Origin: an uncultured Bacteroidia bacterium
GTDB lineage: Bacteria > Bacteroidota > Bacteroidia > Bacteroidales > F082
Direction of reading: 5' to 3'
Length of the DNA: 45,336 bases
Assembly: GCA_902783365.1 (NCBI GenBank)
Contig: CACZQL010000089.1
Coordinates: forward strand, 1 to 45,336
Part shown: positions 4,117 through 45,237 of the stretch, piece by piece
How positions within the stretch are numbered: the stretch's first letter is position 1
Layout of the letters: each line of letters begins with the position of its first letter
Made by a program: the position numbers and the translations under genes
The notes under the pieces: model-generated
The model's input: only the letters and a program-made list of their open reading frames with translations
Databases searched by the model: none
Told to the model about the DNA's origin: nothing

Positions 4117-4398
4117 GCTTTTTCAAGAAATTTTTTTCAAAAAAATTAAAGTGCTCTAATTATCTGTAAATCAATAATTTAAATCAACAACACCCCAATT
4201 TCCCACCAAAATAACCCCTCAGAACCCCCTACTCCATCCCAAAAACCTCCAAAAAATGACGCAAAATCCCCCAAAAAACTCTTCCAAACACCACTCAAAA
4301 CCATCAATTTCCTTCTGTCTTCTGTCTTCCGCCTTCTGTCTTCTTACTCCTTACTTCTTCCTCCTTCCTCCCCAAACACCTTAATTAATATATCCCAA
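4117..4398. other. Intergenic region, strongly G-poor on the plus strand
   Basis: No gene is seen between the rpsL promoter and the stop of the 44-codon ORF. From about 4186 to 4312 the plus strand is almost only A, C and T, with about three G in roughly 125 bases. It runs into the heptamer array at 4313-4368. The strand bias may be an eroded older array, but this is inference. Confidence 0.5.
4313..4368. repeat. Heptamer array, word TTCTGTC and variants
   Basis: Eight contiguous 7-bp units can be read on the plus strand: TTCTGTC, TTCTGTC, TTCCGCC, TTCTGTC, TTCTTAC, TCCTTAC, TTCTTCC, TCCTTCC. On the minus strand this is purine-rich and starts about 30 nt downstream of the stop of the minus-strand ORF at 4399. 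It belongs to the dispersed array family described in the findings. Confidence 0.8.
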
Positions 4399-4533
4399 CT
4401 ATTGGAGCTCGGCAGGGTTGAAAAGCATCTCTTTGTCGGCGGGCTTGATGTAATTTCCGTAATCTTCAGCTGCCAAGGCAGGGAAACTACGCTCTTCCAG
4501 TAATGGATAACCTTTCAACCGTGCTGCCAACAT
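4399..4533 (-). CDS. 44-aa ORF, possible microprotein or remnant of a gene 3' end
   Basis: An ATG at 4533 opens 44 codons ending in TAG at 4399. The product (MLAARLKGYPLL...FNPAELQ) is acidic-amphipathic, without signal peptide or membrane segment, and I do not recognise its family. The frame stays open 15 codons upstream of the ATG to a TAA at 4579-4581. A TAATTTTG box at 4574-4581 is well placed to transcribe it. The sequence after that box resembles the leader of the neighbouring transglutaminase gene. It may be a real small gene, or the fusion of a promoter with the tail of a deleted gene; the codon use looks coding. Confidence 0.5.
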   Translation of the reverse strand: MLAARLKGYPLLEERSFPALAAEDYGNYIKPADKEMLFNPAELQ

Positions 4534-4573
4534 CTCGTCTGCACCACCCCTAATATGCTTGTCGCTGAAAAGA

Positions 4574-4581
4574 CAAAATTA
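4574..4581 (-). promoter_or_regulatory. Candidate -7 box for the 44-aa ORF
   Basis: TAATTTTG on the minus strand matches TAnnTTTG; the ATG follows about 40 nt downstream. The bases just before and after the box closely resemble those around the transglutaminase promoter at 5610-5617. Confidence 0.45.
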
Positions 4582-4632
4582 ACACAAATAATCTATTTTC
4601 CTACAAAGATAATCATTTTTGCGAGGCAAAAA

Positions 4633-5571
4633 TCATTTCGTCACCTCATACCTTAAAATCGCATTGCTCTTAAAACCTATGTAAAACACACCTTCAGATT
4701 TCGGACGATAAACCAAAGTGAAAAGATTACCATTTTTTTTCCACATCTCACTATGATGATTTGCATCCCAACTATGGACATCAGCCCATGCTTCAGACGC
4801 AAGGCTTCTGATTTTTAGCGTATAGGTCCTTCCCACCTTCATTTTTCCATTATACGGTATTTGAACCAGCTCAAATTCGCCCAAGTTATCGGAAAATCCC
4901 CCATAAAAATCGGGCGAAGACATTCCCGGATGTTGTAAGTAATAATTCAGCACCTCTTGGCTTTTCCATCCAGCAAATGCAACTGACGGAGGGACATTAG
5001 GCAGTCTTCGATATTGTTCTATTGTGACAGGTTTTTTGAGAAGCTGGTCAGCATCATTATGGGGAAAATGAGTAAAAATCATTAATCGAGGATCCGCATC
5101 GAACCAGAAAGCCTTATACTCAAAAACGAAATGATCATCAAACAGCTCTCCTGCGCCCCAACAAGGGTCGATGAGAATCCATCCTTTTTCAGTGTTGACT
5201 TTAACCCATGCATGCGACAGTGTTCCATCCATATCAATCATAGTTCTTGCTTCGCCAGAAATCACCTTCGCCTCCAAATCACATCCAGCGGCCAACTTGA
5301 CAAACAATTCAGCATAGCCCTGGCAGACTCCTTTTCTTTGACCCCAGCAGTCCTCCGCATTATAAATACTATAACTCATATCGTAGGCAATATTGGCGCA
5401 TTCCCAATCAAAAATGGCCTTGGCTTTCTCGTAACTTGTTGTACAGCCCTCCACAATAGGCCTAACACGTTCTCTCCATATCGGATAGCCAGATTCTTGA
5501 TAATCAAAATCTTTAAAACTTGAAAACAGCGCTATTATCAATCCCAAAGCCAACACTGAAATCTTTTTCAT
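4633..5571 (-). CDS. Secreted transglutaminase-like cysteine peptidase-fold protein
   Basis: The 312-residue product starts with an N-terminal signal peptide (hydrophobic residues 4-18). A transglutaminase-like core follows with an apparent catalytic triad: Cys83 in KGVCQGYAE, His120 in LSHAWVKV and Asp135 in LIDPCWG. The last 120 or so residues look beta-rich and may form an Ig-like domain. Such proteins of the transglutaminase superfamily are common in Bacteroidota and act as proteases or amidases outside the cytoplasm; the substrate is unknown. It has its own -7 box at 5610-5617 and no operon partner on the same strand. The product is full length with no disrupted motif. Confidence 0.8.
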   Translation of the reverse strand: MKKISVLALGLIIALFSSFKDFDYQESGYPIWRERVRPIVEGCTTSYEKAKAIFDWECANIAYDMSYSIYNAEDCWGQRKGVCQGYAELFVKLAAGCDLEAKVISGEARTMIDMDGTLSHAWVKVNTEKGWILIDPCWGAGELFDDHFVFEYKAFWFDADPRLMIFTHFPHNDADQLLKKPVTIEQYRRLPNVPPSVAFAGWKSQEVLNYYLQHPGMSSPDFYGGFSDNLGEFELVQIPYNGKMKVGRTYTLKIRSLASEAWADVHSWDANHHSEMWKKNGNLFTLVYRPKSEGVFYIGFKSNAILRYEVTK

Positions 5572-5609
5572 CTTGTTTTTTTATTAATGATGTGCTTGTC
5601 GTTAAAAAG

Positions 5610-5617
5610 CAAAATTA
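5610..5617 (-). promoter_or_regulatory. -7 box of the transglutaminase-like gene
   Basis: TAATTTTG on the minus strand, 38 bp before the ATG at 5571. The sequence downstream of the box (CGACAAGCA...) recurs at the same distance after the box at 4574-4581. Confidence 0.55.
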
Positions 5618-5621
5618 GCAC

Positions 5622-5651
5622 AAAAAAAGCATACCACCCCAGGTGGTATGC
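5622..5651 (-). terminator. Intrinsic terminator behind the 110-aa gene
   Basis: A perfect 10-bp stem (GCATACCACC at 5629-5638 and its complement at 5642-5651) with a 3-base loop is followed on the minus strand by seven T (5628-5622). It lies about 95 nt downstream of the gene ending at 5745 and just upstream of the transglutaminase promoter, separating the two units. Confidence 0.85.
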
Positions 5652-5744
5652 TGAATTATTTTACCAAATAATCTGAATTATTTTACCAATTCCACTCTCA
5701 CTCCATCGCTTCGACCGATTTCATGAGAAAGGAATCGGGGCTTA

Positions 5745-6077: not shown

Positions 6078-6108
6078 ATTCTGTGGTGTTTTTAGGTTTA
6101 TTTGGCTA

Positions 6109-6116
6109 CAAACATA
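6109..6116 (-). promoter_or_regulatory. -7 box of the 110-aa gene
   Basis: TATGTTTG on the minus strand, fitting TAnnTTTG, 31 bp before the ATG at 6077. It is divergent from the box at 6170-6177. Confidence 0.55.
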
Positions 6117-6169
6117 AGAAAAAAACTCGGAAATCCAACAAACAAAGTCAAAAAATAATGGATTTTCCC

Positions 6170-6177: not shown

Positions 6178-6199
6178 CATCCTATATTAATAAATAGGT

Positions 6200-6444: not shown

Positions 6445-9400
6445 TTATTCTCTCACAACAATCTTTTGGGTCTTCACCTCGCTGCCGCTGATGAGGCGGA
6501 GCACATACACACCAACTGTGAAGTTGGGAGTTGGAAGTAGGCAGTTGGCAGTTGACAGTTCTTTGCTGAACAATTGATGACCGAGGACGTCGAAGATTTG
6601 AAGGGTTCCCGTGCCGTTGACGACGATGTGGCCATCGCTGATGAAGGCGAAGTCATCGCCCATGTCGCTGAAGGCGTCGTCGGCATTGAACACCAGCTTG
6701 AACCTCGACGCATAGTCGGTGGTTTTGGCTTCGAAGGTGTAGCTTGGCGTTTGCAACAGATCCACGTCGGCACCGGTGAGATGGTCGATCAGGTGGAGAT
6801 AGTTGGGAGTTGGCAGTTGGGAGTTGGCAGTTTCGGAGACGGTCAGGGTGTAGGTGCCGTTCTTTTCCGCCTTGAAGTTGACGGGCACCTCGCCTTTCCT
6901 ATCGGAATACACTACCGCGTAGTCGTGACGGTCTTGCAAGATATACAGTTTTGTCCCGTCGGGTCTCAAGCTGAACTTGCCCAAGGCGGGGCCTTCGCCG
7001 AAGCGCACTCTGGCGCGGTCAGCCACCCGGTTGCCCGTGACGGATGCGCCATTGAAGACATTGAGGGTGAGTTGTCCACCCTTGCCGTTATTGTCAGGCA
7101 TGACAGTGGTGAAGGTCACGGCATCGTCATTAGCGTCGGCGGCCTGCACGAAGAGGCCTTGCAGCGGGGCGATCGCATCATTTTCGGAGATTTCCAATTC
7201 GTCGTTGGCGGTATTCATCACATAGAAGTCGCGTGGTTCGGTGAGGTAGGCATCGCAGGCGAAGGGGTTGCCCACGAGGTTGAAACCCGGAAATTCGGCG
7301 GAGGCGTCGTAAGTCAGGGGCACTTCGACATCCTCACCTGCCGGACGCAACACGCCTTCCATATCTATTATCACGGAGGGGTTGCTGCCATCGCCGCTGT
7401 TGGCGTAAAGATAACCTTGACCGTTGTGCAGCTTGAAGTAAGGGCTGAGGTAGAAATATTGGTTGTAGTTCTCCCATTCCAACATCGCGCTTTGGTTAAA
7501 GCGGTAGAGGTCAAAGGCGTTGGACAGCATGGTCTCAGAAGGCATAATAGGCTCTTGCATGGGCGAGGCAATGAGGTGCCAGCCGTCGGCTTTCTGGTCA
7601 CCGTCGGTTTGTGCAACTGCATAAGGACTGACGGATTTCCGCGCCTTGGCCTGTACGCCTTCATTGTTGTGTTTCAGCTGTGCTCCGTCGGCAAGGGTGA
7701 GGCTGCCGTTGGAAGTAAGGTAAACCTCATCGACTTGCGCGACACATCCACTCGGAATGACCGCTGCGCCATCGACAATGACCATCTCATCAGCTTCAGG
7801 CAACACGCCTTTCGACCAGTTGGCCGTCTCAGACCAAAGGCCTTGGCTGGTTTGCTTAGCAAAGACATTTCTATTGTACAACGCCACGTCATAGATACTG
7901 AAAGATGTGGCGGTGCCGTAGTTACCGTTGCTGGTGGCACGGTAACCGAACCAAATGCGCACGGTTTGTCCAACATAGTCACTCAACGAAATGGTAGTGA
8001 CGCCATCAGATATGCCATCTGTGTCGGAGCTCCAGACAGTGGTGGAATAATCCGTCATCACCACCACCTCGGCGTGAGCCAGGGTGTTGAGTTCTGTGCT
8101 GTGGTGGAAAACAAGCGCCAATCCAGGCGTCACATAGATCTCGGGGGTAATCAAGTGAGCATTCGTGTTTAGGGTTGTCAAACTTGCGGTGGCATATCCG
8201 TAGGAAATCCTCCACACATTATCTGTTCCAGAGACCAACCAGCATGCTGGCATCTGATTAAAATGATAGACACCTAAGTCATCAAAGCTCTGAATGTAAG
8301 ACTCATCTGGGCCCAAGACGATGGGGGCGCATTCGGTTTCGAAAATTACGAGGTCGCTCCATTCGCTTTCACCGTATTCGTTGTGGGCCTTCAGCTGCAC
8401 CTGGTATCTGTACGAGCTTCTCAGCCCGGTAAGTGGGTAGGGATGCTGGGTGATGGTGCTTATCGTCCAATCGTCATTGACCGAGGTCCGGTAACGCAGT
8501 GTCCACGACGTCTCTCCATGGCTTGTCCAGTCGAGCACGACACTGTTGGTGGTAATGTCAGTAGGCACCACGTTATCGGGTCTGATGCATTTGGTGACAT
8601 TGATTTTGTCGAAGTAAATTGCGCTGTATTGGATGTCGTCATCGCCATAGTCGTTCGCCACGGTTGATTCACCATAGAATGCGAACAGCACTGTCTTGTT
8701 GTTGTAGGCCGACAGGTCGAAGTGCACTTCGGATGGGAAGGTCGGGATGTCGAGATAGACCCCGCCTTGGGTGCCGATGTTGTCCCACAAACCCAGCGTA
8801 GTCCAAGTGGCTCCATCATCATCGGAAACCAGCACGGCAAAGCGGTTGTCATCCAGGCCTGTGGTGGCATTTTCAGGATAACGCAAGAACAAATCTAAAC
8901 TGAGGCTATAATTTTCACCCAAAACGATGCTTGGAGTGACGAACCAATGGTGGTCGTCAGTGTAGGAGACCTCCATGTGATTATAGCCGTCAATATAATA
9001 AGTCATGCCAGTGGCATCATTATAGAAAACCCAGTCAAGGTCGTGATTTCCATTCCAGACATATCGCATTCCCAAGGGGGTACCGCCCAACACGTCGTCT
9101 AATGAGGCATCCGCAGTTTGCCAGCCCCATAACATAAAGGGTTCTTCGGGGTAGTTCCCAAAATCCTCAAAAAAAGGAGCGGTATAGGCCAAGGTGAAAC
9201 AAATCGGTTCGCTCCAGTCGCTGGTCTCAATGTCGGAACAAACCGCCTTCACCCGCACATGGTACATTGTGTTTTCCACGAGTCCGTCAAAGGTGACAGG
9301 GTTTGAGTCACAGGTTTGGAAATCATCAGGCCATTCATCCTCAATGTCCTTCAGCTGCACCTGCCAAGTGGTCTCGTCACCTCCCGGAGTCCATTGTATC

Positions 9401-12400
9401 GTCGCGGAGTGCGTAGTGAATGCAGTGACCGTCAGGTCAGTGGGTTCCAAGCAAGTGGAGATTTGACGCACCACGACATCATCCACAAAGAGATATCTCT
9501 GTTCCATCCCGTCTGTTAGCTCACGACGGATGGCGATATAGGTTCCCTCGCCAGAATATCCCCCAAAGCTCACCCTGCATCGTTGATAGCCATTTGTGGC
9601 AATACTATTTTGAGGTTCGATGGTCAAGGCTTCGACAAGCTCAAACGTCTCGGGATTCGTCGGGTCGGTCATGACACCCACGTCGCAATAGGTATTCTCA
9701 CCATAGCCGGCTGCATAGAACACCAGCTCGACGCCACTGATCGGCTCGGGTATCTCAGGCAATGCGGCAATTGCGGTAGTTCCATCCATATAACTGAAAA
9801 TCAAGCTATGAGGTTCTGTATTGCCGTAGTTAGACACGCTAATAGGAGAACTTTCATCAACACCCTCGCCCGAATAATAGCAGGTCCAGCAGGGCGGGAA
9901 ACCACCATAGGGAGTATCCTCAAAGCCGTAGCTGTATGGCAGGGTGATAGGCGCACATTCGGTGCTGAACCAAGTCTCCGTCCAATCGCTATAAAAGTCA
10001 TTGTCGCAGACGGCTCTCACTCGGACCCAATAGCCTTGAGAGGGTTCCAGACCTTGGAGCGTGCAGGGGTTGGTCACCGTTCCCGGAACCTCAACATAGT
10101 CGGCTTCATGGCCGGGGATGGTATATTGGATTTCCCAAGCTTGAACGCTGCTGTTGGCCGTCCAGCTGACCGTGGCGGAGTTGGCAGTAATGCCGCTCAC
10201 CTCCAAATCGGTGGGACGGTTGCAGGTTTGGGGTATTTCATCGGGAACATAGTAGCGGAAGGTGGTCTTTGGCAGGAAAGAACTATAATAGCTATGAACG
10301 TTAAACCAGCTGCCATCTCTGTACTGGATGACCGACGACCCGTAATTCTCCGAGTTTTCGGTGACAACACCCGCCCAAGTCGAAAAGACCCTATTGACCG
10401 CGCCAGAACGTTCCGATGAAAAACGCACCAAGAGGTTGCCTCCTTCGTAATAATAAGGTTCATCAAAAGTGACGGTCATCTTATTGTCAGTCACGCCAAC
10501 CACCCCGCTGAAAACCTGCTGTCCACCACCATGATTCGTGTTGGTTTCGGTGAAATCGACCTCACTCAAGAACAGATTGTAGTCGAGTTCCCCCCAATTA
10601 ATATTGGCGGGTGTGCTGGTGTAGAAGGTCACCTGCTTGATCATGGTTTGAGCCATGTCCTGCAAATCGTTGGCAGGCATGACGAATTCACCGAAGAAAG
10701 GTTGGTTCACGTAATAGCCAGGCACCGGCACATAATCATGGTAGCCAACAGTGGCATTCGTTCCGTCATACACCGTAAGCAAGTCGGCGATCATGAAGCT
10801 GCAAGGGAGACTCCACTCGCTGACGCTGCCAGAACCTTCGTTAGCGCGGACATACACATAGTAATTGCGTCCAGGCTCAAGGTCTGACAAGACGTAGGGG
10901 TTAGATCCGATGTTGGCGAATTGCGGATGGGTATTTCCTCTCGGCACAAAGTCGGGATTATCAGTGTAAAACACATCCCAGTGATCCTCGTTGCCTTTGG
11001 GATGCCAACTGAGAGTGGCTCCCGACGCGCTGAGGTCGCTCACCGTCAAATCGTATGGACTTGTCACTGTAGCGAAGGCAAATGTGATTTTAGGCAAGAA
11101 CATGACAGTTTGGTTGAAGCCACCTGAATTGCTTTGATACTTGGCGGTATAGCCCGTGGTGGTCACACCAATCCAACTACCATTATCTTCACCACTATAG
11201 TTTCCTATTTGACTCAAATTGAACCCTATGGCCAAATTGCCACCACTATATTGGAATGGTGTGTCGAAAACGATTTCCAACCGGTTGTTACGTCCTGTTA
11301 AAGTCCCTGTGTACACTAGGGTCATGCTATTCGCATTGATCGTGTTTCCAAAAGTGGTCTGTTCGGTTTCAACCATATATATTTTGTAGGTGGCTCCATA
11401 GAAATAGGGCGTGGTAGTGTTACTATAGAAAGTCATCTTGTTGATTTGCGAGTCACGCATCTCGGTGAGCGATGAGGCGGGAATGATGAATTGGCTTTTC
11501 CATCCCGTGTACAATGAAGTATTCAGATGATAGAGACGAGCGGGGACATAGTTATTAATAGCGGTGCCATCGTTCACGGTCAACAACTGCACGGTATAAA
11601 AGCTGCAAACGTCATTGCACCAGTGGCTCACTTCCCCAGCTCCACACTTGGCGCGGACGTAAGCATAATAGGTCAAGCCGCTTCTGAGGCCATTCAGGGT
11701 GAAAGGGTTCTCGGTGACGGTGATTCGGGTACCATAACCGTCAGGGTCAAAGTCGGGGTCGGTGGAATAAGCGATTTCCCAAGTGTCCTCTGAGCCTTGG
11801 GGCGTCCACGCCAAGGTGGCGGAGTTTTGCGTTATACCAGTGAGTGTCAGGTCTTTAGGTTTGAGACAGGTGGGAGCCACCTCCACAGTCACGTCATCCA
11901 AAAGGATCCATTTAAAGCTCGACTCGGTGATTCCCTTGAAAATAAACACCACATTTTCCGCACCTGCATAAGCGTCGGGAATGGCTATTTCCTTTTCAGT
12001 CCAGCCAGTGGTAGTGGGCAGGTTGGTGGCCAAGGCTGTACTGTAGGTTCGTCCTCTGTCGGTGGAGATATAAACGGAGAAACTGGCTCCATTGTCGTTT
12101 TTGTACCAGAATGAGAGCTGCATCGACTCTCCGGAAGGCAAGTTCATGATGGGAGTTTTCAGGAACGAGGTCTGTCCTGAAGGACTGGATTGGGCAATGA
12201 ATCGGACAGCATTGCCGTTATGTCCTTCGTTGGTGTAACTCCATCGGTGCCCTTCGTCAGTCAAAGTGCCATCCGTATTGTTCCAACAGTCGGGAATAGG
12301 TTTCAAAGAAGAAATGGAACTGAAACGCTCCAAAAAGGGGAAACCATCGATGGGTTCGCAAAGGGTGGTAAACGATAAGGCCTCAGACCAAGTGCTTCCA

Positions 12401-16569: not shown

Positions 16570-16682
16570 GTTAATAGTTGGTCAGTTAGTCAGTTGGTCA
16601 GTTAGTTTTTCTTGAGATAACCTCATTTAACTATCAACTGACCAACTGATCAACTGATTAACTGAACAACTGATCAACTGAG
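16570..16682. repeat. Paired inverted heptamer/octamer arrays between lpdA and rfbC
   Basis: Arm 1 (16570-16605) reads GTTAATA, GTTGGTCA, GTTAGTCA, GTTGGTCA, GTTAG. Arm 2 (16631-16682) reads CTATCAAC, TGACCAAC, TGATCAAC, TGATTAAC, TGAACAAC, TGATCAAC. The arms are complementary with mismatches and are separated by about 25 bases including TTTTT, so the transcript could form one long imperfect hairpin. The pair starts 3 nt after the lpdA stop and ends 3 nt before the rfbC ATG. Confidence 0.85.
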
Positions 16683-17257: not shown

Positions 17258-17445
17258 CGCCCGGAGGGCGAAAGATGGTTAGAAAAACGGATTTGATTAT
17301 CGAAGAATCGCCCGGAGGGCGAGAGATGGTTAGAAACACGGAATTGATTATCGTATAATCGCCCGGAGGGCGAAAGATGGTTAGAAAAACGGATTGATTA
17401 TCGAAGAATCGCCCGGAGGGCGAGAGATGGTTAGAATGAATTGAT
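17258..17445. repeat. Tandem 50-51 bp repeats with GC palindrome, 3.7 copies
   Basis: Copies start at 17258, 17309, 17360 and 17410. Each opens with CGCCCGGAGGGCG, a 5-bp stem with a GGA loop, then (A/G)AGATGGTTAGAA, then GATTATCG..GAATC-like sequence that is itself partly palindromic. The fourth copy is cut short before the next ATG (17451). Copies alternate GCGAAAG and GCGAGAG. No spacers separate them, so this is not CRISPR; it fills the whole gap between rfbC and the transglycosylase gene. Confidence 0.9.
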
Positions 17446-22984: not shown

Positions 22985-23019
22985 AGAATTAAGAATTCAG
23001 AAGAAAGAAGTAAGAAGAT
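22985..23019. repeat. Heptamer array between rsmG and the M16 peptidase gene
   Basis: Units AGAATTA, AGAATTC, AGAAGAA, AGAAGTA, then AGAAG running into the ATG at 23018. It starts 5 nt after the rsmG stop and reaches the start codon of the next gene. Confidence 0.7.
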
Positions 23020-27475: not shown

Positions 27476-27550
27476 GTTGAAAGGTGAGAGGTGAAAGGTG
27501 AGAGGTGCTGGCGCAGGCCACCTTTCACCTTTCAACTTTCACCTTTCACC
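27476..27550. repeat. Inverted pair of heptamer arrays (GGTGAAA / TTTCACC)
   Basis: Arm 1 reads GTTGAAA, GGTGAGA, GGTGAAA, GGTGAGA, GGTG. After an 11-base loop, arm 2 reads CACC, TTTCACC, TTTCAAC, TTTCACC, TTTCACC. Together they can form a hairpin of about 30 bp with few mismatches. The array starts at the base after the MFS stop codon and ends 13 bp before the ATG of the next gene. Confidence 0.9.
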
Positions 27551-27563
27551 TAAAAAAACTGCC

Positions 27564-33550: not shown

Positions 33551-35866
33551 ATGAAACACACACTGACAGCCCTCGTTTTATTGGTCGCCGCGCTCTTTGC
33601 CCAAGCTTACGCATCGGATCCGGTGACATTGCACAGTCCCGACGGAAAATTGGAGCTCCGTTTTGAACTCCGGGACGGTGTACCTTATTATTCCCTCGAC
33701 CGTACCGGCCAGCCGGTGGTATTGCCCTCCAAGATGGGCTTCACCCTGGAATGGCGCGACGACTTGGCCCATGCCTTTGTTTTGAAAGGCACCGACTTCG
33801 ACAGCTTCGACGAGACTTGGGAACCCGTCTGGGGCGAGGAAGCCCGAATCCGCAACCATTACAACGAGCTGTTGGTGACCCTCGAACAGCCCATCGGCTC
33901 CGTGGAGAGCATGGACCACTCCACCGAGAAACGCCCCACCGTGATGCAGATCCGTTTCCGGCTCTACGACGACGGGCTGGGCTTCCGCTACGAGTTCCCC
34001 ATGGAGAACGCCCTGGTCTGCTTCTGGTTCAAGGAAGAGCTGACCGAGTTCGCCATGGCCGGCGACCACACCGCCTGGTGGATTCCGGGCGACTTGGACA
34101 CCCAGGAATACAACTACACCCAATCGCGCCTCTCGGAGATCAGCACCTTGTTCGAGGCCGGCCACAAAGACGGTGGATGGCCTTGGACCGCTTTCTCCAA
34201 CACCGGGGTGCAAACCGCCTTGCAGATGAAGACCGACGAAGGCCTTTACATCAACATCCATGAGGCCGCCACCCTCGATTTCCCGACCATGCACCTTGAT
34301 TTAATAACAGGGAGAGAAGCATCATCCAACAGTTCTCCGTTTACCTTTAGGGCTTGGCTCTGTCCCGACGCCGCGGGCTACAAAGGACGCCTTCAGGCAC
34401 CTTGCCACACCCCCTGGCGCACGGTGATGGTCTGCGAGAGAGCCACCGATGTGCTGGCTTCAAGGCTGATTTTGAACCTCAACGACCCCTGCGCCCTGGA
34501 AGACGTGTCATGGATCCACCCTGTTAAATACATGGGAGTGTGGTGGGAGATGATCTCGGGCAAAAGCACCTGGTCCTATACCGACCAGTTCCCGTCGGTG
34601 AAGCTTGGCGAGACCGATTTCGAACATGCCAAACCCAACGGCACCCATGGCGCCAACAACGCCAACGTGCGCCGTTACATCGACTTTGCCGCCGCCAACG
34701 GCTTCGACGCCCTCCTCATCGAGGGATGGAACGTGGGGTGGGAAGACTGGTACGGCAAACAGAAGGATTTCGTGTTCGACTTCCTCACGCCCTACCCCGA
34801 CTTCGACCTGCCCGCGCTCAACAAATACGCCCATGAGAAAGGCATCCGCCTCATCATGCACCACGAGAGTTCCGCCTCCACCGTCAACTACGAGCGTTGG
34901 ATGGAGAAGGCCTACAACCTGATGAACCAATATGGCTACGACGCCGTCAAGAGCGGCTATGTGGGCACCATCATCCCCTTCGCCGAAGGACATTACAGCC
35001 AGCCCATCAACAACCACTACCATTATGCCATCGTGGAGGCCGCCAAGCACCACATCATGGTGAACGCCCACGAGGCGGTACGCCCCACAGGGTTGTGCCG
35101 CACCTGGCCCAACATGATCGGCAACGAGAGCGCCATGGGCACAGAGTTCCGGGAGCGCATCAACCCCGGCCACACCACCATCCTGCCTTTCACCCGTTTG
35201 CAAGGCGGTCCGATGGACTACACCCCAGGCATTTTTGAGCCCGACATGGGGAAAATCGTCCCTTGGGGCAAGAAGATGCACCACACCATCTGCAACCAGT
35301 TGGGACTCTATGTGACCTTCTACTCGCCTTTGCAGATGGCCGCCGACTTCCCCGAGCATTACGAGCCTTACATGGACGCCTTCCAGTTCATCAAGGACGT
35401 GGCCGTTGACTGGGACACCAGCCTCTACCTCTATGCCGAGCCTGGCGACTACATCGTCACCGCCCGCCATCCGAAGCTCTCCTCGCTGAACAAAGCCGCC
35501 GAGGGGCTCGCCTCCCTGCCCGACGGCAAACAAGGCGTCATCAACAGCGTCACCCGTTTCGTCTATAACCTCTCACCTCTCACCTCTTCCCTTTCCCCTC
35601 TCGCCTCCCCTCACGACGTTTGGTACGTGGGCGGCATCACCGATGAGAACGCCCGTGAAGTGAAGGTGAAACTCGACTTCCTGAAGCCTGGTGTCACCTA
35701 CGACGCCACCATCTACGCCGATGCCAGCGACGCTGACGGGATGCCTGGCGACACCTATAACCCGCAAGCCTACACCATCACCCATAAAAAGGTGACTTCC
35801 AAAACGGTATTGAAACTCAAGATGGCCCGTTGCGGCGGCTTCGCGATCTCCTTAAGATCAAGATAA
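33551..35866 (+). CDS. GH97 alpha-glucosidase, SusB-type (inverting)
   Basis: GH97 enzymes hydrolyse terminal alpha-glucosides, usually in the periplasm. The 771-residue protein has a signal peptide (1-22), an N-terminal beta-sandwich, a catalytic barrel (about 300-640) and a C-terminal beta domain. Glu439 (MHHESSAS), Glu508 (NAHEAVRPTG) and Glu532 (MGTEF) match the base and acid positions I recall for B. thetaiotaomicron SusB, and the barrel lacks the Asp nucleophile of retaining members. A 14-residue Ser/Leu/Pro insertion near residue 675 is encoded by a heptamer array. No susC/susD genes lie nearby; it is 5 bp behind DUF2147. Confidence 0.92.
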   Translation: MKHTLTALVLLVAALFAQAYASDPVTLHSPDGKLELRFELRDGVPYYSLDRTGQPVVLPSKMGFTLEWRDDLAHAFVLKGTDFDSFDETWEPVWGEEARIRNHYNELLVTLEQPIGSVESMDHSTEKRPTVMQIRFRLYDDGLGFRYEFPMENALVCFWFKEELTEFAMAGDHTAWWIPGDLDTQEYNYTQSRLSEISTLFEAGHKDGGWPWTAFSNTGVQTALQMKTDEGLYINIHEAATLDFPTMHLDLITGREASSNSSPFTFRAWLCPDAAGYKGRLQAPCHTPWRTVMVCERATDVLASRLILNLNDPCALEDVSWIHPVKYMGVWWEMISGKSTWSYTDQFPSVKLGETDFEHAKPNGTHGANNANVRRYIDFAAANGFDALLIEGWNVGWEDWYGKQKDFVFDFLTPYPDFDLPALNKYAHEKGIRLIMHHESSASTVNYERWMEKAYNLMNQYGYDAVKSGYVGTIIPFAEGHYSQPINNHYHYAIVEAAKHHIMVNAHEAVRPTGLCRTWPNMIGNESAMGTEFRERINPGHTTILPFTRLQGGPMDYTPGIFEPDMGKIVPWGKKMHHTICNQLGLYVTFYSPLQMAADFPEHYEPYMDAFQFIKDVAVDWDTSLYLYAEPGDYIVTARHPKLSSLNKAAEGLASLPDGKQGVINSVTRFVYNLSPLTSSLSPLASPHDVWYVGGITDENAREVKVKLDFLKPGVTYDATIYADASDADGMPGDTYNPQAYTITHKKVTSKTVLKLKMARCGGFAISLRSR
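35569..35610. repeat. Heptamer array inside the GH97 gene
   Basis: Six units CCTCTCA, CCTCTCA, CCTCTTC, CCTTTCC, CCTCTCG, CCTCCCC, in all 42 bp or 14 codons. They give the peptide LSPLTSSLSPLASP between FVYN and HDVWYVGG, at the joint of the barrel and the C-terminal domain. The frame is intact. Confidence 0.9.
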
Positions 35867-37910: not shown

Positions 37911-38819
37911 ATGAACAAGAATCATCTTAGGAAACTCCAACGTTATCTTCCATTTGTTTTATTAATTGCGAGTCTTTTGGCTTGCACTTTCGCTTTTGGT
38001 GACGTAGGCAACCAGAACCGCTACAGCTCCGGCAGCAGCAGTGGCGGGGGCGATGGTGACCTGGGGGCCCTCATCGGCTATCTCATCGGCTTGTTCATCC
38101 AAGACCCGGCCGTAGGCATGGTCGTGCTGGTCATCCTGGTCATTATCATCCTCATCGGGAGGTTCAAATCGAAGAAGCAAGCCTCTGACCCCGGCTACAT
38201 CAACCAGCAGGTGAACGACCAGGCCAACAACGACCGTCCTTACGACAACACTTCGGTGGTGGCCGACAAGATCCGCCAGACTGACCCGGCCTTCTCGTCC
38301 GAGAAATTCATCAGCTGGGCCCAGGAGGTGTTCATGAAGATCCAGCAGGCCTGGACCGACCGCGACTGGAAGCCCATCCGCCCCTTCGAGAGCGAGAGCC
38401 TCTTCTCCACCCACCAGCAACAGCTCAATGAATACATCCGTCTCAACAAGATCAACGTCATCGAGAAGGTGGGCATCAAGCACTGCTCCCTGAAGTCGTT
38501 CTCCGTTGATGGCGACAAGGAGACCATCGTGGTCATTCTCAACGCCGTGATGCGCGATTATGTCATCGACGCGGAGACGAAGAAGGTGCTTGAGAGCGAC
38601 CCGAACCGCGACTGGTACATGAAATACGAGCTGACCTTCATCCGCAAGGCAGGCGTGAAGACCAAGCCCGGCATCAGCAACCTCTCCACCACCAACTGTC
38701 CCTGCTGCGGCGCCCCCACTGAGATCACCTCGGCGGGACAATGCCCCTATTGCGGCAGCATCATCACCACGGGCGAACACGACTGGGTGCTGAATAACCT
38801 GGTGGGAGTGAATGGGTAA
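37911..38819 (+). CDS. TIM44-like domain membrane protein with C-terminal zinc ribbon
   Basis: The 302-residue product has a hydrophobic N-terminus (RYLPFVLLIASLLAC), which could be a lipoprotein signal with Cys25 or a first membrane helix. A Ser/Gly-rich linker follows, then a second long hydrophobic segment (about 55-88). A TIM44-like domain (about 124-265) starts around FSSEKFISWAQEVFMKIQ, and a zinc ribbon CPCCGAPTE...CPYCGS ends the protein. TIM44-like domains in bacteria bind membranes or membrane proteins; here the domain probably faces the cytoplasm. The SPFH gene follows 126 bp downstream and also ends in zinc ribbons. A GGTGAAA array begins immediately after the TAA. Confidence 0.78.
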   Translation: MNKNHLRKLQRYLPFVLLIASLLACTFAFGDVGNQNRYSSGSSSGGGDGDLGALIGYLIGLFIQDPAVGMVVLVILVIIILIGRFKSKKQASDPGYINQQVNDQANNDRPYDNTSVVADKIRQTDPAFSSEKFISWAQEVFMKIQQAWTDRDWKPIRPFESESLFSTHQQQLNEYIRLNKINVIEKVGIKHCSLKSFSVDGDKETIVVILNAVMRDYVIDAETKKVLESDPNRDWYMKYELTFIRKAGVKTKPGISNLSTTNCPCCGAPTEITSAGQCPYCGSIITTGEHDWVLNNLVGVNG

Positions 38820-38852
38820 GGTGAAAGGTGAAAGGTGAAAGGTGAGAGGTTG
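38820..38852. repeat. Heptamer array after the TIM44-like gene
   Basis: Units GGTGAAA, GGTGAAA, GGTGAAA, GGTGAGA, GGTTGAG start at the first base after the stop codon (38817-38819). Confidence 0.85.
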
Positions 38853-38945: not shown

Positions 38946-40196
38946 ATGGGACTTATTAAAGCAATAGGCGGTGCCATTGGAGGCACTCTCAAAGACCAGT
39001 GGTTAGACCTCATCAAATGCGATGACATGAACATGGACACCCTGATGGTGAAACAGACCACCAAGACAGGACAGATTTCAAAGGGCAGCCGCATCCTTGT
39101 GGCTCCCGGCCAGGCCGTCGTCATCTACGACAGCGGCGCGATCCTCGACGCTTCCGCAGAGGAAGGCGTCTATACCTTCGACCAATCGTCGTCACCCTCC
39201 TTCTTCGGTGGCCAGTTCGGCCCTGTCTTCAAGGAGATGTGGCAGCGTTTCACATACGGCGGCACTCCCGCCAAGGAGCAGGCCGTGTTCTTCTTCAACC
39301 TGAAAGAGATCATGGGCAACAAGTTCGGCACAGCGGCCCCGTTCATGTTTGAGGACTGGAAGCACCCCGTCCGCAACGAGTTCGGCGAGAAAAACGCCAT
39401 GTACGTTGAGATCCGCTGCTTCGGCAACTACACCTTCAAACTCGACGACCTCGCCCTCTTCATGCGCACCTACGCCGGCACCGGCAACGTGGTGAGGAAA
39501 GAAGACATCACCGAACAGATGCGCGCCGAAGTCATCAGCGTGTTGGAAAGCGTGGTCAACTCCCTGGGCAACGAGCAGAACCCCGTCGGCGCCCTCCAGC
39601 TCCCCGACAAGAAGACCGAGATGTTTGAACTGATGAACCAGCGGGTGTATGACGAGCGCATCCGCGCGAGAGGCATCCGCCTCCTCGGCTTCAACATCGA
39701 GTCCGTCACCCTCTCGCCCCAGAGCCAGGAAGACATGAGGAAATACCAGACGGGTGGCTCCAGCAACCTGTCGAGAGGCAGCATCCTCGAGTCCATCAAC
39801 ACGGCAGCTGGCAACGAAGGCGGTGCTGGCACCGGCTTCATGGGCATCGGCATGGCGGGCATGGGCATCGGCGCGGCGGGCAACATGATGGGCAACATCA
39901 TGCCCAACCAACCCACGCAACCGGCACCCGCCGCTCCGGCACCACAGGCGCAAGGCGTGCCCTGCCCCAAATGCGGCACCCTCATCACCGGCAAGTTCTG
40001 CCCCGAGTGCGGCACACCGGCGCCCGCTCCCAAGACACCCAAGAAGTGCCCGAAGTGCGGTACCGAGACCACTGGCAAGTTCTGCCCCGAATGCGGCACC
40101 CCCATCCCGGCGGACCAAGGCCCGAAAAAATGCCCTAAGTGCGGCACTGAGACCACCGGCAAGTTCTGCCCCGAATGCGGCACCCCCGTCGCCTGA
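38946..40196 (+). CDS. SPFH-domain protein with three C-terminal zinc ribbons (YdjI/virion-core-like)
   Basis: The 416-residue protein starts with an amphipathic Gly-rich segment (MGLIKAIGGAIGGTL) that could touch the membrane. An SPFH/stomatin-type domain follows (about 35-275; VEIRCFGNYTFKL and RGIRLLGFNIESV are characteristic strands). Next come a Gly/Met-rich and Pro/Ala-rich linker and three zinc ribbons of the form CPKCGT...GKFCPECGTP, the last two near-identical at 28-residue spacing. The family resembles B. subtilis YdjI, which works with PspA-type membrane-stress proteins; that comparison is from memory. The partner TIM44-like gene lies just upstream. The AT-rich leader contains no heptamers. 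Confidence 0.8.
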   Translation: MGLIKAIGGAIGGTLKDQWLDLIKCDDMNMDTLMVKQTTKTGQISKGSRILVAPGQAVVIYDSGAILDASAEEGVYTFDQSSSPSFFGGQFGPVFKEMWQRFTYGGTPAKEQAVFFFNLKEIMGNKFGTAAPFMFEDWKHPVRNEFGEKNAMYVEIRCFGNYTFKLDDLALFMRTYAGTGNVVRKEDITEQMRAEVISVLESVVNSLGNEQNPVGALQLPDKKTEMFELMNQRVYDERIRARGIRLLGFNIESVTLSPQSQEDMRKYQTGGSSNLSRGSILESINTAAGNEGGAGTGFMGIGMAGMGIGAAGNMMGNIMPNQPTQPAPAAPAPQAQGVPCPKCGTLITGKFCPECGTPAPAPKTPKKCPKCGTETTGKFCPECGTPIPADQGPKKCPKCGTETTGKFCPECGTPVA

Positions 40197-40368: not shown

Positions 40369-40404
40369 AACTCTCAACTGTTAACTGTCAACTATCAACT
40401 GAAC
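40369..40404. repeat. Heptamer array before the LOG gene
   Basis: Units AACTCTC, AACTGTT, AACTGTC, AACTATC, AACTGAAC end three bases before the ATG at 40408. Confidence 0.85.
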
Positions 40405-40407
40405 ATT

Positions 40408-41576: not shown

Positions 41577-43690
41577 ACGCCCGGAGGCAGGTCCTGCACC
41601 TCCAAAACCGGCTCTTTGGACGAAACCGCCCGTTCCAACCGCTTCCTGCCAAAGGCGTCCATCACCATCACAGTCTTTATTCCCTCCCCTTTTGTGATGA
41701 TATGGATTTGCGATTGTACAGGATTGGGGAATATCAACACTTCTTCGTCCTCCTGAAACTCGGATATTGCAAGGTTAACGACAGGAATGTCGGCATTAAT
41801 AAGCCGCAATCCTCCCGCGAAGCTACCCGCCATCATCTCAAGAATCCCGTCGCCGTTCAAGTCGGCCACCGCCACCGAAGCGCGTGTCCCGACACGTTGC
41901 GGCACATCCTCGCAGATCTCCGGCCAACGATCCGAGACCTCCTCGAAAACCGTTTGGCCATCGGCGGCAAGCCCTTCAAAAAGAAACAGTTTGCCCGATT
42001 CAGACCCCACCGCCAGCCACACCTTTTCGTCCGACGAAAACAAGGTCGGGACACTGTATCCATAGTAAGAGGTGTGGTAGTCGCGCACATCCACCCCTCC
42101 CCATTCGTCGGTCACCCAATGGAATGCCTCTTCAGGAGCCGAGGCGCCAGAGCCACGGTAAAACGACAGCTTCCCGGTGGCGTTGCCCACCACCAAATCG
42201 GTCCAGCCATCCTGATCCACATCAAAAAGGCAGGGAGCCGACCAAGGTTTGTCATAGTGGAGAAAATCATCCTCCAGCAAGGAGCCGTCATGGGCAAAGA
42301 GCCGCAAACGGCCCTCCGCAGTACCCACCAACAGTTCCGGTAGTCCATCGTTGTCGAAATCGAAAAAAGCCGGCGACAGCCCCATGGCGCAGTCGGTCTT
42401 CACAGGAAAAGATTGCAGCACGAAGGCCGGCTCCGTAGCGTTTCCCACGTTTCTGAGCCAACTCAGCTCCGCCTTGCGGCTCGTCTCCACAACGCCATCC
42501 TGCCCCCAGTCGTTTTCAATGTCGCCGATGGTACCCAGGACCACGTCCAACAGGCCGTCGCCATCCCAGTCCACCACCACGGGAGTCGCCCCCGTACCGA
42601 GGTCAATCATCCCGTTTTGCAGAAACGACTTTGTATAAATTTGAAAATCAGGAATTTCATTGGTACCATGATTCAGATATAGCCAGACGCTCTCTTTTCC
42701 TTTACAGGCCATGGGATCGGGGTCGAAAGGCGAAACCAGCAAGTCGTCCACACCGTCATTATTGACATCGGTGAAGAACGGCACCGGCATGGAAGGAAGA
42801 CGCACAGGGCATTGTTGGGGGAAAGCTTCCGTTTGGCTGACCATCAAAGCCTTTTCGGCATCGCCCCCATTCATTAATAAGGTCAACCCGGGATAATCCA
42901 CATCGGCCAGGAGGAGGTCGGGCAGCGCATCGCCATTCAAGTCCCTGACCGTCACCGTCGCGCCCCGATGCCTCACAGGGTCCACCTTAAGGCCATAACC
43001 GAAGAGGCAGGTATCGAGGTACATCACATTGTTCTCCTCACTCTCCCCCACCCTGCCCCAGCAAAGGTCCACCCGTTCATAGACCAGCGAGTCGCGGGTG
43101 CCATAACGTTCCATCGACAGGTTTCGGTGATGTTCGATGAAAGTGCCCAACACCCCGAAGGTGAGCAGGTCGAGGTCGCCGTCGCCGTCCAGGTCGGTGA
43201 GGGCCGGATAGTCCGCGTTGGTAGCCAGGATGTTCACCTCGCCACCACCTTGAAACGAAGTCAGGTAGGGGGCGACCACCTGGTGAAAGGCCGGATGCCC
43301 CGTAGCGGACACATTGCGATACACCATGATGCCCGCCCATCCGGGGGAATACGTGAAGAGGTCCTCCCTCCCATCCCCGTCGTAATCTGCAAAAACCACC
43401 CAGTCGCTCAGCTCGGGGAAGGCCCCGTCGTAGATGGAAGTATATTGATAGTCAAGCGCTCCCCTTTCTCCTCGATTCAAGAAACAAAGCAGGCGGTTGT
43501 CATGGCGGTCGAACACCAGCAGGTCTTTCATGCCATCCCCGTCGAGGTCCATGCGGCCAAACTGGCAGGCGTTGAGGCCTCCAACCCAAGGAAAGTGGAA
43601 AGTGGAAAGTGGAAAGTGGAAAGTTTCCTTTTCAGCGCCGGGAAGGTAGAGAGAGGCCAATAGTAATATCGTCAGAAAAAGGCGTTTCAT
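41516..43690 (-). CDS. FG-GAP/VCBS repeat T9SS cargo protein
   Basis: The start is set at ATG 43690 (MKRLFLTILLLASLYLPGAE, a signal peptide); the longer frame opens with TTG. The 724-residue product has about nine FG-GAP/VCBS-type calcium-loop repeats of the form DxDGDGxxDLL (for example DLDGDGMKDLL, DWDGDGLLDVV, DVDQDGWTDLV), expected to build a beta-propeller. A T9SS sorting domain ends it (PPGVYLLGLAF). Just behind the signal peptide a GGAAAGT array encodes FHFPLSTFHFP. It is likely surface-anchored or released; ligand unknown. The -7 box at 43697-43704 suggests a nearly leaderless transcript. Confidence 0.88.
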   Translation of the reverse strand: MKRLFLTILLLASLYLPGAEKETFHFPLSTFHFPWVGGLNACQFGRMDLDGDGMKDLLVFDRHDNRLLCFLNRGERGALDYQYTSIYDGAFPELSDWVVFADYDGDGREDLFTYSPGWAGIMVYRNVSATGHPAFHQVVAPYLTSFQGGGEVNILATNADYPALTDLDGDGDLDLLTFGVLGTFIEHHRNLSMERYGTRDSLVYERVDLCWGRVGESEENNVMYLDTCLFGYGLKVDPVRHRGATVTVRDLNGDALPDLLLADVDYPGLTLLMNGGDAEKALMVSQTEAFPQQCPVRLPSMPVPFFTDVNNDGVDDLLVSPFDPDPMACKGKESVWLYLNHGTNEIPDFQIYTKSFLQNGMIDLGTGATPVVVDWDGDGLLDVVLGTIGDIENDWGQDGVVETSRKAELSWLRNVGNATEPAFVLQSFPVKTDCAMGLSPAFFDFDNDGLPELLVGTAEGRLRLFAHDGSLLEDDFLHYDKPWSAPCLFDVDQDGWTDLVVGNATGKLSFYRGSGASAPEEAFHWVTDEWGGVDVRDYHTSYYGYSVPTLFSSDEKVWLAVGSESGKLFLFEGLAADGQTVFEEVSDRWPEICEDVPQRVGTRASVAVADLNGDGILEMMAGSFAGGLRLINADIPVVNLAISEFQEDEEVLIFPNPVQSQIHIITKGEGIKTVMVMDAFGRKRLERAVSSKEPVLEVQDLPPGVYLLGLAFDFGLVNRIFLKR
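43590..43624. repeat. Heptamer array inside the FG-GAP gene
   Basis: Five exact copies of GGAAAGT on the plus strand; on the coding strand they read ACTTTCC and encode residues about 23-34 (TFHFPLSTFHFP), just after the signal peptide. Confidence 0.92.
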
Positions 43691-43696
43691 CAAGTG

Positions 43697-43704
43697 CAAA
43701 TTTA
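43697..43704 (-). promoter_or_regulatory. Candidate -7 box of the FG-GAP gene
   Basis: TAAATTTG on the minus strand fits TAnnTTTG but ends only 6 bp before the ATG at 43690, so the transcript would be leaderless or start at the A of ATG. Confidence 0.4.
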
Positions 43705-43748
43705 ATCATTTTGAAGAGTACAGCGGAAAGTGCTTCATCTTTTTTTAT

Positions 43749-43756
43749 TACTTTTG
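43749..43756 (+). promoter_or_regulatory. -7 box of the response regulator gene
   Basis: TACTTTTG on the plus strand, fitting TAnnTTTG, 18 bp before the ATG at 43775. No TTG at the expected -33 distance. Confidence 0.55.
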
Positions 43757-43774
43757 CGAAAAATTTGAGTTGTT

Positions 43775-44935
43775 ATGTCACGAATTTTAATCATTGACGA
43801 CCAGGACGCCATTCGCAGGGTGCTGCGAGAAATCTTGGAAAACGAAAAATACCAGGTGGATGACGCCGCCAACGGTCCTACCGCCTTGCAGATGATGAAG
43901 GACCAGGAGTATGACGCCATCCTCTGCGACATCAAGATGCCCGACATGGACGGCATCGAAGTGCTGGAACAGGTGAAAACCCTGTACGACACGCCCGTCA
44001 TCATGATTTCGGGCCATGGCACCGTTGACAACGCCGTCGATGCCTTCAAGAAAGGCGCGTTCGACTTCATCTTGAAACCGCCCGATCTGAACCGGCTCCT
44101 CATCACGGTACGCAACGCCTTGGACAAGAGGAAACTAAGCACCGAGAACAAGGCGTTGAAGAAAGCCGTGAGTCGTCAGAACGAGATGGTGGGACAGTCG
44201 GCGGCGATGATGGAGGTGCGTGACATGATTGAGAAGGTGGCCCCCACGGGTGCGAGGGTACTCATCACGGGCGAGAACGGAACTGGCAAAGAGCTGGTCG
44301 CCAAGCAGTTGCACGAGTTAAGTCCACGTCGTTACGGGCCATTCATCGAGGTAAACTGCGCCGCCATCCCCGCGGAGCTCATCGAGAGCCAGCTGTTCGG
44401 TCATGAAAAAGGTTCCTTCACCTCCGCCATTAAACAAAAGAAGGGCGACTTCGAGCTGGCCGACGGAGGCACGTTGTTTTTGGACGAGATCGGCGACATG
44501 AGTCTGGCCGCCCAGGCCAAGGTGCTGCGGGCCTTGCAGGAGAACAAGATTGTGCGCGTGGGTGGAGAGAAGGAGATCCCAGTGGATGTGCGCATCATCG
44601 CCGCCACCAACAAGAATCTGAAGAAGATGATTGAGGAGAATGCCTTCCGTGAAGATTTGTACCATCGTTTGAGCGTCATTGTGATTCATGTTCCTCCCTT
44701 GCGGGAGCGCAAGGATGATATTCCGTTGTTAGTCAACAGCTTCGTGGAGATCATCGCCCAGAACATGGGGAAGGCCACGCCCAGTTTTGACGACGATGCC
44801 ATTGAGGAGTTGAAAAACTACCAGTGGACGGGCAACATCCGCGAGTTGCACAACATTGTGGAGCGTTTGGTGATTCTTTGCGGCAGCACCATCACGAAGG
44901 ATGACGTCATTCATTTCGGGAACCCGCTGAGTTAG
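43775..44935 (+). CDS. Sigma-54 activator response regulator lacking a DNA-binding domain
   Basis: The 386-residue protein has a receiver domain (1-120; phospho-acceptor Asp52 in LCDIKMPDMDG, Asp8/Asp9). An AAA+ sigma-54 interaction domain follows (about 140-375) with Walker A GENGTGKE, Walker B GTLFLDEIG and the sigma-54 contact loop GSFTSA in place of the usual GAFTGA. The chain stops after the AAA+ lid (ITKDDVIHFGNPLS), and no Fis-type HTH follows. From memory, a family of Bacteroidota regulators has this same short form, so it is probably complete. It should activate sigma-54 polymerase from solution or through a partner. No histidine kinase gene is adjacent. The stop codon TAG (44933-44935) abuts the repeat array. 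Confidence 0.9.
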   Translation: MSRILIIDDQDAIRRVLREILENEKYQVDDAANGPTALQMMKDQEYDAILCDIKMPDMDGIEVLEQVKTLYDTPVIMISGHGTVDNAVDAFKKGAFDFILKPPDLNRLLITVRNALDKRKLSTENKALKKAVSRQNEMVGQSAAMMEVRDMIEKVAPTGARVLITGENGTGKELVAKQLHELSPRRYGPFIEVNCAAIPAELIESQLFGHEKGSFTSAIKQKKGDFELADGGTLFLDEIGDMSLAAQAKVLRALQENKIVRVGGEKEIPVDVRIIAATNKNLKKMIEENAFREDLYHRLSVIVIHVPPLRERKDDIPLLVNSFVEIIAQNMGKATPSFDDDAIEELKNYQWTGNIRELHNIVERLVILCGSTITKDDVIHFGNPLS

Positions 44936-45082
44936 TTGGCAGTTGTTCAGTTGTTCAGTTGTTCAGTTGGCAGTTGTTCAGTTGTTCAGTTGTTCAGTTG
45001 GCAGTTGGCAGTTGGCAGTTGTTCAGTTGGCAGTTGTTCAGTTGGCGGTTGGCAGTTGGCGGTTAGCAGTTGGGAGTTGAAA
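44935..45082. repeat. Long heptamer/octamer array after the response regulator
   Basis: About twenty units mixing GTTGGCA and GTTGTTCA, with GTTGGCG, GTTAGCA, GTTGGGA and GTTGAAA variants at the far end. It starts at the last base of the stop codon. It is the longest array of the window and is mirrored by the AAC-type array at 45178-45237. Confidence 0.95.
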
Positions 45083-45123
45083 GAATAGATTAACCTTATT
45101 CAGAAGTTTTTTTCAGCAAGCCC

Positions 45124-45154
45124 TTGCGGGGCATTGTGATTTGTTGTATTTTTG
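45124..45154 (+). promoter_or_regulatory. Promoter of ssrA
   Basis: TTG (45124-45126), 20-bp spacer, then TATTTTTG (45147-45154). Both boxes and spacing fit the consensus. Transcription should start near 45161, about 80 nt before the mature tmRNA 5' end. Confidence 0.75.
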
Positions 45155-45177
45155 CGGCCTGTTCTTTGAGAGGTGAC

Positions 45178-45237
45178 AACTCTAAACTCTAAACTGAACA
45201 ACTGAACAACTGAACAACTGAACAACTATCAACTGAT
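45178..45237. repeat. Heptamer/octamer array directly before tmRNA
   Basis: Units AACTCTA, AACTCTA, AACTGAAC (four times), AACTATC, AACTGAT. It ends two bases before the predicted 5' end of tmRNA and lies inside its predicted precursor leader. Confidence 0.92.

Follow-up and report, generated by a model that had tools for sequence, protein, structure and literature searches.

Outward-facing heptamer arrays in a Bacteroidales genome and their association with S23 intervening-sequence genes

Why should tandem arrays with a period of 7 or 8 bp gather at the ends of bacterial genes, and why should they face one way? The question is raised by a 45,336-nucleotide stretch of DNA (the window), which is contig CACZQL010000089.1 (C89) of assembly GCA_902783365.1, the 2.75-Mb metagenome genome of an uncultured Bacteroidia bacterium in 154 contigs; its nearest named relatives are Bacteroidales metagenome-assembled genomes (MAGs), many of them from rumen. 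A preliminary description, made from the letters of the window alone, reported such arrays at about fifteen sites, G-rich in sense after genes and C-rich before them, and took this to suggest a link to transcription. Here we find that the G-rich strand of an array reads away from the nearest open reading frame (ORF) edge whatever the strand of that ORF, which restates the same rule geometrically. We also find that genes of the S23 family (PF05635) lie between inverted heptamer arrays far oftener than their neighbour genes do, clearly so in Cyanobacteria and Bacteroidales. This second association was beyond the sight of the preliminary description.

Arrays were called by a period-7/8 detector at a stricter threshold (score of at least 11) and a looser one (at least 8), with 60 Markov-sampled sequences as the null and genes from a home-made caller. 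At the stricter threshold the window holds 14 arrays (Markov samples: mean 0.017, maximum 1), and at the looser one 18 (mean 1.1, maximum 4); the arrays are real. Every site of the preliminary description does carry an array, those at 22985 and 40369 being weak (scores 8 and 10). In a 589-kb sample of the genome (the window and 40 further stretches, mostly every third contig), period 7 accounted for 67 segments between genes and 17 within coding sequence, and period 8 for nine between genes, with about none in ten Markov samples; the other frequent intergenic periods are multiples of 7 and 8. The vocabulary is limited: among 101 arrays, AAAGGTG/AGAGGTG accounts for 23, AATGCGG for 15, AAGACAG for 9, AGTTGGC and AAGAAGT for 6 each and AAAGTGG for 5.

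To score polarity we set aside, from these 101 arrays, 18 in genes, 17 that lack a flanking gene on one side, one with equal G and C, 12 ties and four farther than 60 nt. At stop edges, 34 of 36 unambiguous arrays have the G-rich strand outwards (22/23 between co-directional genes and 12/13 between convergent ones), and arrays without an opposed partner keep this polarity in 17 of 19 cases. Elsewhere the stop-edge counts are 20/25 in G033, 7/8 in G020, 7/7 at the closest named loci, 20/26 in other named relatives and 3/4 in far ones; over the first five samples, this genome included, they come to 88 of 100 with a 40-nt limit. Start edges follow the rule in 11 of 13 cases in this genome and in 3/4, 4/4 and 4/4 in the nearest samples, and more weakly farther out: 2/7 in distant named relatives, 2/2 in the farthest and 1/5 in other families (one miss having G equal to C). 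The strand rule of the preliminary description therefore stands for both kinds of edge in this genome, and its start-edge half fades in distant relatives and other families. The single word AAGGTGA was present in 17 of 394 other genomes of a phylum sample, and at the 18 loci read there, some of them related to each other, 14 of 15 stop-nearest arrays face G-out. Systematic stretches of G383 gave 7/7 and of G246 0/1.

Two simple causes of this polarity can be set aside. Base composition is rejected because array-free sequence after stops is unskewed (G exceeds C in 42 cases and falls below it in 53), so that the orientation is, as had been claimed, not random; array-free sequence before starts has a mild outward skew (116 versus 63). 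Transcription direction is weakened as a cause because the rule is a matter of geometry and holds equally well whether the flanking genes run the same way or converge, with 27 of 30 arrays in convergent spacers following it over five samples; the suggested link to transcription was accordingly not shown. The further claim that arrays within genes are C-rich in sense holds weakly, interior arrays numbering 13 C-rich to 7 G-rich over five samples.

What lies between two arrays gives the second line of evidence. In the 23S rRNA intervening sequence (IVS), complementary borders enclose an S23 ORF, ribonuclease III (RNase III) excises the insert, and distribution is sporadic (PMC4990558; here and below, published work is cited from the passages covered). 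Five S23 genes occurred in the 3.28 Mb of sequence that we examined, and four have arrays on both sides. To these Bacteroidales loci (L175 was reached by its core pattern and the four others by way of unrelated proteins; the orthologues L223 and L239 count as two) we added all 25 plasmid records matching S23 in a protein search blind to arrays, mostly from Nostoc and other Cyanobacteria and also from Bernardetia, Treponema, Monoglobus and Chlorohelix. One place, picked by the protein match alone, was read per record, two further S23 places on these records staying outside the set, and five of 31 rows were removed as duplicates by 60-base identity, leaving 26. L335, split over two frames, and L313, with in-frame stops on translation, were counted as found. 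Controls were the 178 ORFs of at least 200 nt in the same plasmid loci.

Arrays on both sides within 150 bp flank 18 of the 26 S23 genes and none of the 178 other ORFs (Fisher p = 6e-20), and an inverted-repeat score of at least 14 between the flanks is found for 20 of 26 against 2 of 178 (p = 2e-20). Both features together mark 15 of 26 S23 genes (11 Cyanobacteria, 4 Bacteroidales) and no control. The plasmid genes alone give 14/21 for arrays and 16/21 for the inverted repeat. Flanks of S23 genes also pair better within their own locus, at a mean of -70.5 versus -43.0 kcal/mol with flanks of other loci (24 of 26 rows), the own-locus partner being the best one in 13 of 24 cases. On virus contigs, one S23 protein as query picked up no relative and a profile gave 19 loci; after removal of two duplicates and one without full flank, an inverted repeat surrounds 9 of 16 S23 genes and 2 of 80 controls. 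Two records of a phage collection match S23. The S23 loci of Bacteroidales and plasmids adjoin protein genes or ssrA, not rRNA helices. No link between S23 and heptamer arrays appeared among the matches listed from the open-licence full-text literature, which does not show its absence from print.

Some plasmid S23 ORFs (L303, L306, L311, L313, L339-L343 and L345) lie among what we take to be defence-like genes: cas2/cas1, csx2/cas1, drmD with a methylase or MmeI gene, hsdS/hsdR, and DUF1156 and Swt1-family genes. S23 presumably resembles Avd of diversity-generating retroelements; an alignment-free model of S23 had a mean pLDDT (predicted local distance difference test) of 41, too poor to use.

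Many of the arrays come in opposed pairs with a fixed order. When two opposed arrays lie at most 70 bp apart, the G-rich array comes first in 31 of 33 cases and the C-rich one in 2 of 33, and this genome has G-then-C in 15 of 15; the two arms usually have the same word. For AAGGTGA the whole genome has 11 G-then-C sites with a 4-30-base gap and no C-then-G site. Folding of six paired elements predicted RNA stems with z from -6.6 to -9.8. Between the arms there may be a recurrent core: the 13-bp AGCCTGCGGTAGC, with at most one mismatch, has 11 copies in the genome. Ten of these fit exactly between two arms, made of the word AAGGTGA (five sites), AAAGTGG (three), AGTTGGC (one) or AAGACAG (one). 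Of 59 other genomes of the genus that were searched, three have a single copy, never between arrays as judged by eye, so that it is observed as an array core only in this genome. A second core occurs at 12 places, and eight of the nine read adjoin AATGCGG arrays. At the S23 locus of this genome, L175, a G-array precedes the ORF and the S23 stop codon TAG opens TAGCCTGCGGTAGC, the recurrent core that L175 shares with nine other sites; a C-array follows it. As a separate observation, nine of the ten array-flanked copies of AGCCTGCGGTAGC in this genome (G000) lie on the + strand of the contig, where an arbitrary orientation of contigs would predict no such bias.

Comparison of orthologous spacers shows that the words turn over. 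In 30 same-genus genomes, with classes assigned by eye, the lpdA-rfbC spacer carries octamer or heptamer pairs of AGTTGATC type (three genomes), AATGCGG (one), AATGCTG (two) or degenerate AGGAGTG (one), single AAAACGG arrays (three), single AAGACAG-like arrays (three), pre-start AACAACTG arrays (two), ordinary palindromes of three kinds (11), or other sequence or almost nothing (four). All six single arrays have the G-type strand in sense, as the stop rule demands, but the spacers that they fill are short and they touch the rfbC start as well. In L218 and L225, whose flanks are 92-94% identical, the G-arm differs by one 8-bp unit, an instance of the length change between relatives for which the preliminary description had proposed to look. 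Two spacers, each with an array pair in the window, exist both with and without an S23 gene. The lpdA-rfbC spacer holds paired arrays without S23 in L215, L218 and L225, and in L223 and L239 an ORF between AGTTGTTC and AACAACTG arms, resembling those of the window, that Pfam assigns to 23S_rRNA_IVP, PF05635, at 98 bits against a cut-off of 33.8. The regulator-ssrA spacer has an array pair without S23 in the window and an S23 ORF between arrays in L037, from a Lentimicrobiaceae MAG. A C-type array above threshold stands before the LOG-like gene in 7 of 30 genomes of the same genus, this one among them, and an AT-rich G-type array in one. Orthologues of the L109 gene are found in 6 of 60 genomes, this one included. 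The palindromes that stand in place of arrays between lpdA and rfbC (L221, L227, L228, L231, L233, L234, L236, L238 and L242-L244) belong to the families GTAGAGACGCG..., GATTGCGGGTCAAGCCCGCAATGA and CACTGCGAGGAACGAAGCAGTCC....

Given that S23 ORFs in rRNA lie in stems that RNase III removes and that the intergenic units look alike, we propose that most paired arrays, and perhaps the single ones too, derive from IVS-like elements, complete or reduced. That the arrays are the arms of intergenic stem-loop elements resembling 23S rRNA IVSs seems to us an evenly balanced proposition. A complete copy would consist of a G-rich heptamer array, the S23 ORF and a reverse-complement array; short copies, in which the ORF was lost or never present, would keep two arms round a small core; and single arrays would be lone arms. 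The stems formed by opposed arms may be cut by RNase III, by analogy with rRNA IVSs. The word of an array would be replaced by slippage and copying between sites, and polarity may come from a fixed G-arm-first geometry together with low harm beside stop codons. Two common sites and one core suggest that arrays without S23 may descend from S23 units. Movement of the elements, RNase III processing and the cause of the G-first order are inferences.

Several results weigh against such an element. No transposase, boundary or target duplication was identified for the array/S23 units. The window has no S23 ORF, and in this genome, abundant as its arrays are, S23 was seen only at L175: the 589-kb sample had none, and another 298 kb, taken from contigs with arrays for the sole purpose of this look-up, had no more than that locus. 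Arrays are absent from at least one side of eight of the 26 S23 genes, and six (L220, L306, L311, L312, L335 and L343) have an inverted-repeat score below 14. The only loci of Spirochaetota (Treponema L312) and Bacillota (Monoglobus L313) and both loci of Chloroflexota (Chlorohelix L339 and L343) each have just one of the two features, as has Bernardetia L302. With L335 treated as a single span, arrays stand on both sides of the S23 gene at 19 loci, of which only ten have G upstream and C downstream, three the reverse and six neither; the arms of L037 are C-then-G. On virus contigs, arrays on both sides separate S23 genes from controls more poorly (7/16 versus 8/80). Unit variants are not mirrored between arms (13 of 24, with 0.53 on permutation, in eight pairs), which weakens recent exact inverted copying of the arms, and 40 single arrays have no hidden complement nearby (mean z 0.1), so that singles are not visibly half stems. 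It is possible, if rather doubtful, that arrays arise independently by slippage and copying and that S23 elements simply favour array stems already in place as insertion sites, just as they enter rRNA helices, the link being one of target choice. Arrays do far outnumber S23 genes, the S23 gene of L175 seems to split a G-array (G-array on both sides, core and C-array behind), and words of S23 flanks also occur alone in the same locus, for example AATTACG in L307. The matched flanks of single S23 genes in very different words, and a core common to several sites, suggest instead that array and gene form a unit.

The remaining explanations do without any element. Heptamers could slip in both orientations and be sorted by selection on RNA, since a G-rich leader would impede initiation and a trailer rich in C and poor in G would attract Rho or decay, pairs being kept as terminators or stabilisers. 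This would suit the way arrays hug stop codons: in spacers of this genome with more than 60 free bases, and among arrays no farther than 60 nt from an edge, the 18 stop-nearest ones are all found between -14 and +9. It would also suit their scarcity between divergent genes (3 of 66 arrays, against 58 of the 269 spacers of at least 20 bp), the one-unit change between L218 and L225, and terminator-like hairpins seen by eye in the MFS-27564 spacer (after a major facilitator superfamily, MFS, gene) of other species. We nevertheless think it improbable, since polarity is equally strong between convergent genes, where neither argument bites, the words are a common vocabulary rather than local seeds, and the S23 association is not predicted. 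That arrays are G-quadruplexes or regulator-binding sites, as suggested for GGGAATC and TAACTGA repeats, appears very improbable. The geometry is that of PMC4692102, and pre-start AACTGA-type arrays recall PMC4679880; neither paper, in the passages covered, finds a clear functional class of neighbour genes, and words without GG, which make up 56 of the 100 stop-edge arrays, are still G-out in 48 of 56. Finally, an artefact of gene calling or composition, in which the array supplies the stop codon so that a G-type array closes the ORF and a C-type one lets it read on, is hardly credible. Arrays do often take in the last bases of the stop (among 118 contacts over five samples, the gap is -2 in 20 and -1 in 11), TAG is enriched at these junctions (40/118 versus 200/1437), and arrays just inside ORF 3' ends are C-rich in 8 and G-rich in 7 cases, so that read-through inflates the stop-edge figure somewhat. 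Even so, arrays 1-10 nt past an intact stop are 26 G-rich to 4 C-rich, words with no stop codon in either sense are G-out in 23 of 26, and the array-free spacer after stops is unskewed. These counts weaken stop-codon supply, as those for GG-free words do a G-quadruplex requirement.

Part of this picture is already published. Rehm et al. 2015 (PMC4692102) described intergenic GGGAATC and GGGGA(C/T)T heptamer repeats in Xanthomonas and Nostoc whose G-rich strand points away from the nearest ORF (sense strand near stops, antisense near starts), with 70 and 75 cases of opposed pairs and few repeats between divergent genes. Period 7, intergenic position, outward G-rich strand, opposed pairs and avoidance of divergent spacers are thus common to both systems. 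Those repeats have one word type per species, a preference for four units and a focus on G-quadruplexes, whereas here there are many words, over half of the stop-edge arrays being free of GG, word turnover at one site and a common core. The passages covered of PMC4692102 make no mention of S23, and the S23p structure of PMC4990558 comes from Xanthomonas campestris, a species also treated there. MacGregor 2015 (PMC4679880) reported TAACTGA direct repeats before start codons in Cyanobacteria, Beggiatoaceae and Bacteroidetes: of 14 in Flexibacter litoralis, 12 stand ahead of a start in forward orientation and one follows a stop in reverse, and Microcystis is mixed (24 sets mapped, of which 6 forward and 8 reverse of a start and 8 between stops). 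That system has one word, mainly pre-start; words containing AACTGA are also present here. Polarity, opposed pairs, divergent avoidance (PMC4692102) and pre-start heptamers (PMC4679880) are therefore not new. New here are polarity across many words without G tracts or stop codons, one spacer with different words in different species, and one 13-bp core between arms of four words. The rRNA IVS shares with our units an S23 ORF in a stem of complementary borders and a sporadic distribution, and differs in lying in rRNA helices (PMC4990558) rather than in spacers between genes with period-7/8 arrays as stem arms.

The preliminary description had named the short tandemly repeated repetitive (STRR) sequences of cyanobacteria as nearest precedent, a place that belongs to the repeats of Rehm et al. 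and next to those of MacGregor. Repetitive extragenic palindromic (REP) sequences and bacterial interspersed mosaic elements (BIME) are extragenic hairpins after genes associated with Y1 (RAYT) transposases, and are not heptamer arrays. Y1_Tnp genes are found in 42 of 60 genomes of the genus, with three in this genome. STRR sequences are heptamer tandem repeats in spacers, with several words; we know of no polarity rule or S23 link for them.

The arrays of the window are listed in Table 1. The last one stands beside ssrA, as described, a partial transfer-messenger RNA (tmRNA) gene.

Table 1. Arrays and associated features in the window. For arrays, the strand is that of the G-rich strand.
Feature	Positions	Strand	Remark
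Period-7 array, CTGTCTT on +	4312..4371	-	
AGTTGGC array near 3' end inside long minus-strand ORF 6445-14877	6522..6560	+	
AGTTGGG/AGTTGGC array inside ORF 6445-14877	6801..6832	+	
G-arm AGTTGGTC after lpdA stop	16576..16603	+	first of pair
C-arm AACTGATC before rfbC start	16635..16681	-	second of pair
AAGGTGA-type array overlapping rfbC stop codon	17206..17253	+	
Weak AGAAGTA/AAGAATT array after rsmG	22985..23017	+	score 8
G-arm GGTGARA after MFS gene	27482..27507	+	
Core CTGGCGCAGGC between arms of MFS-27564 pair	27508..27518	no strand	
C-arm CACCTTT before 27564 gene	27519..27551	-	with 27482-27507 strong predicted RNA stem, z -8.6
In-gene array ACCTCTC, gene 33551-35866 (+)	35568..35587	-	
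AAGGTGA array beginning in stop codon of Tim44-domain gene	38818..38850	+	
Weak AACTGTT/AACTGTC array before LOG-like gene	40376..40400	-	score 10
Perfect GGAAAGT x5 inside minus-strand ORF	43590..43624	+	
G-arm AGTTGGC/AGTTGTTC after sigma-54 response regulator	44934..45079	+	part of window's longest array pair
C-arm AACTCTA/AACTGAAC ending 3 nt before ssrA	45178..45236	-	
ssrA (tmRNA), partial, cut by contig end	45240..45336	+	RF00023, 46.4 bits (gathering 47), E 2e-17

Other repeats were seen along the way. The window at 17258-17436 and L112 near 12480-12633 have a tandem repeat of 50-51 bp that contains a small palindrome (CGCCCGGAGGGCG / CACCCGTAGGGTG), after which comes AAGATGGTTAGAAAAACGG or a similar sequence, and related pieces adjoin AATGCGG arrays. 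At 39963-40187 of the window, an 84-bp tandem repeat codes for zinc-ribbon units in an SPFH/Band-7 gene. A SAM-II riboswitch (S-adenosylmethionine class; L172:25-84, 63 bits) lies about 1.4 kb from an array pair of this genome.

On a broader and, in our view, unlikely reading, heptamer arrays throughout bacteria (STRR, TAACTGA, GGGAATC and the words found here) would be the arms and debris of one mobile stem-loop class. In its complete form this class would encode S23, a four-helix-bundle protein, which would recognise the array duplex, as RNA or DNA, and drive its copying. If true, this would explain the word-independent geometry, the vocabulary within a genome, the matched arms and common cores, and the joint occurrence of S23 and heptamers in Cyanobacteria and Bacteroidota. 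The published polarity proves to be independent of G tracts and of any one word. Both heptamer repeats and the S23/IVS protein have long been puzzling for want of a known function, and their association gives the arrays a candidate partner protein. S23 thereby becomes more than an rRNA curiosity, and why the unit has 7 bases and why it takes this orientation are questions now testable on existing genomes.

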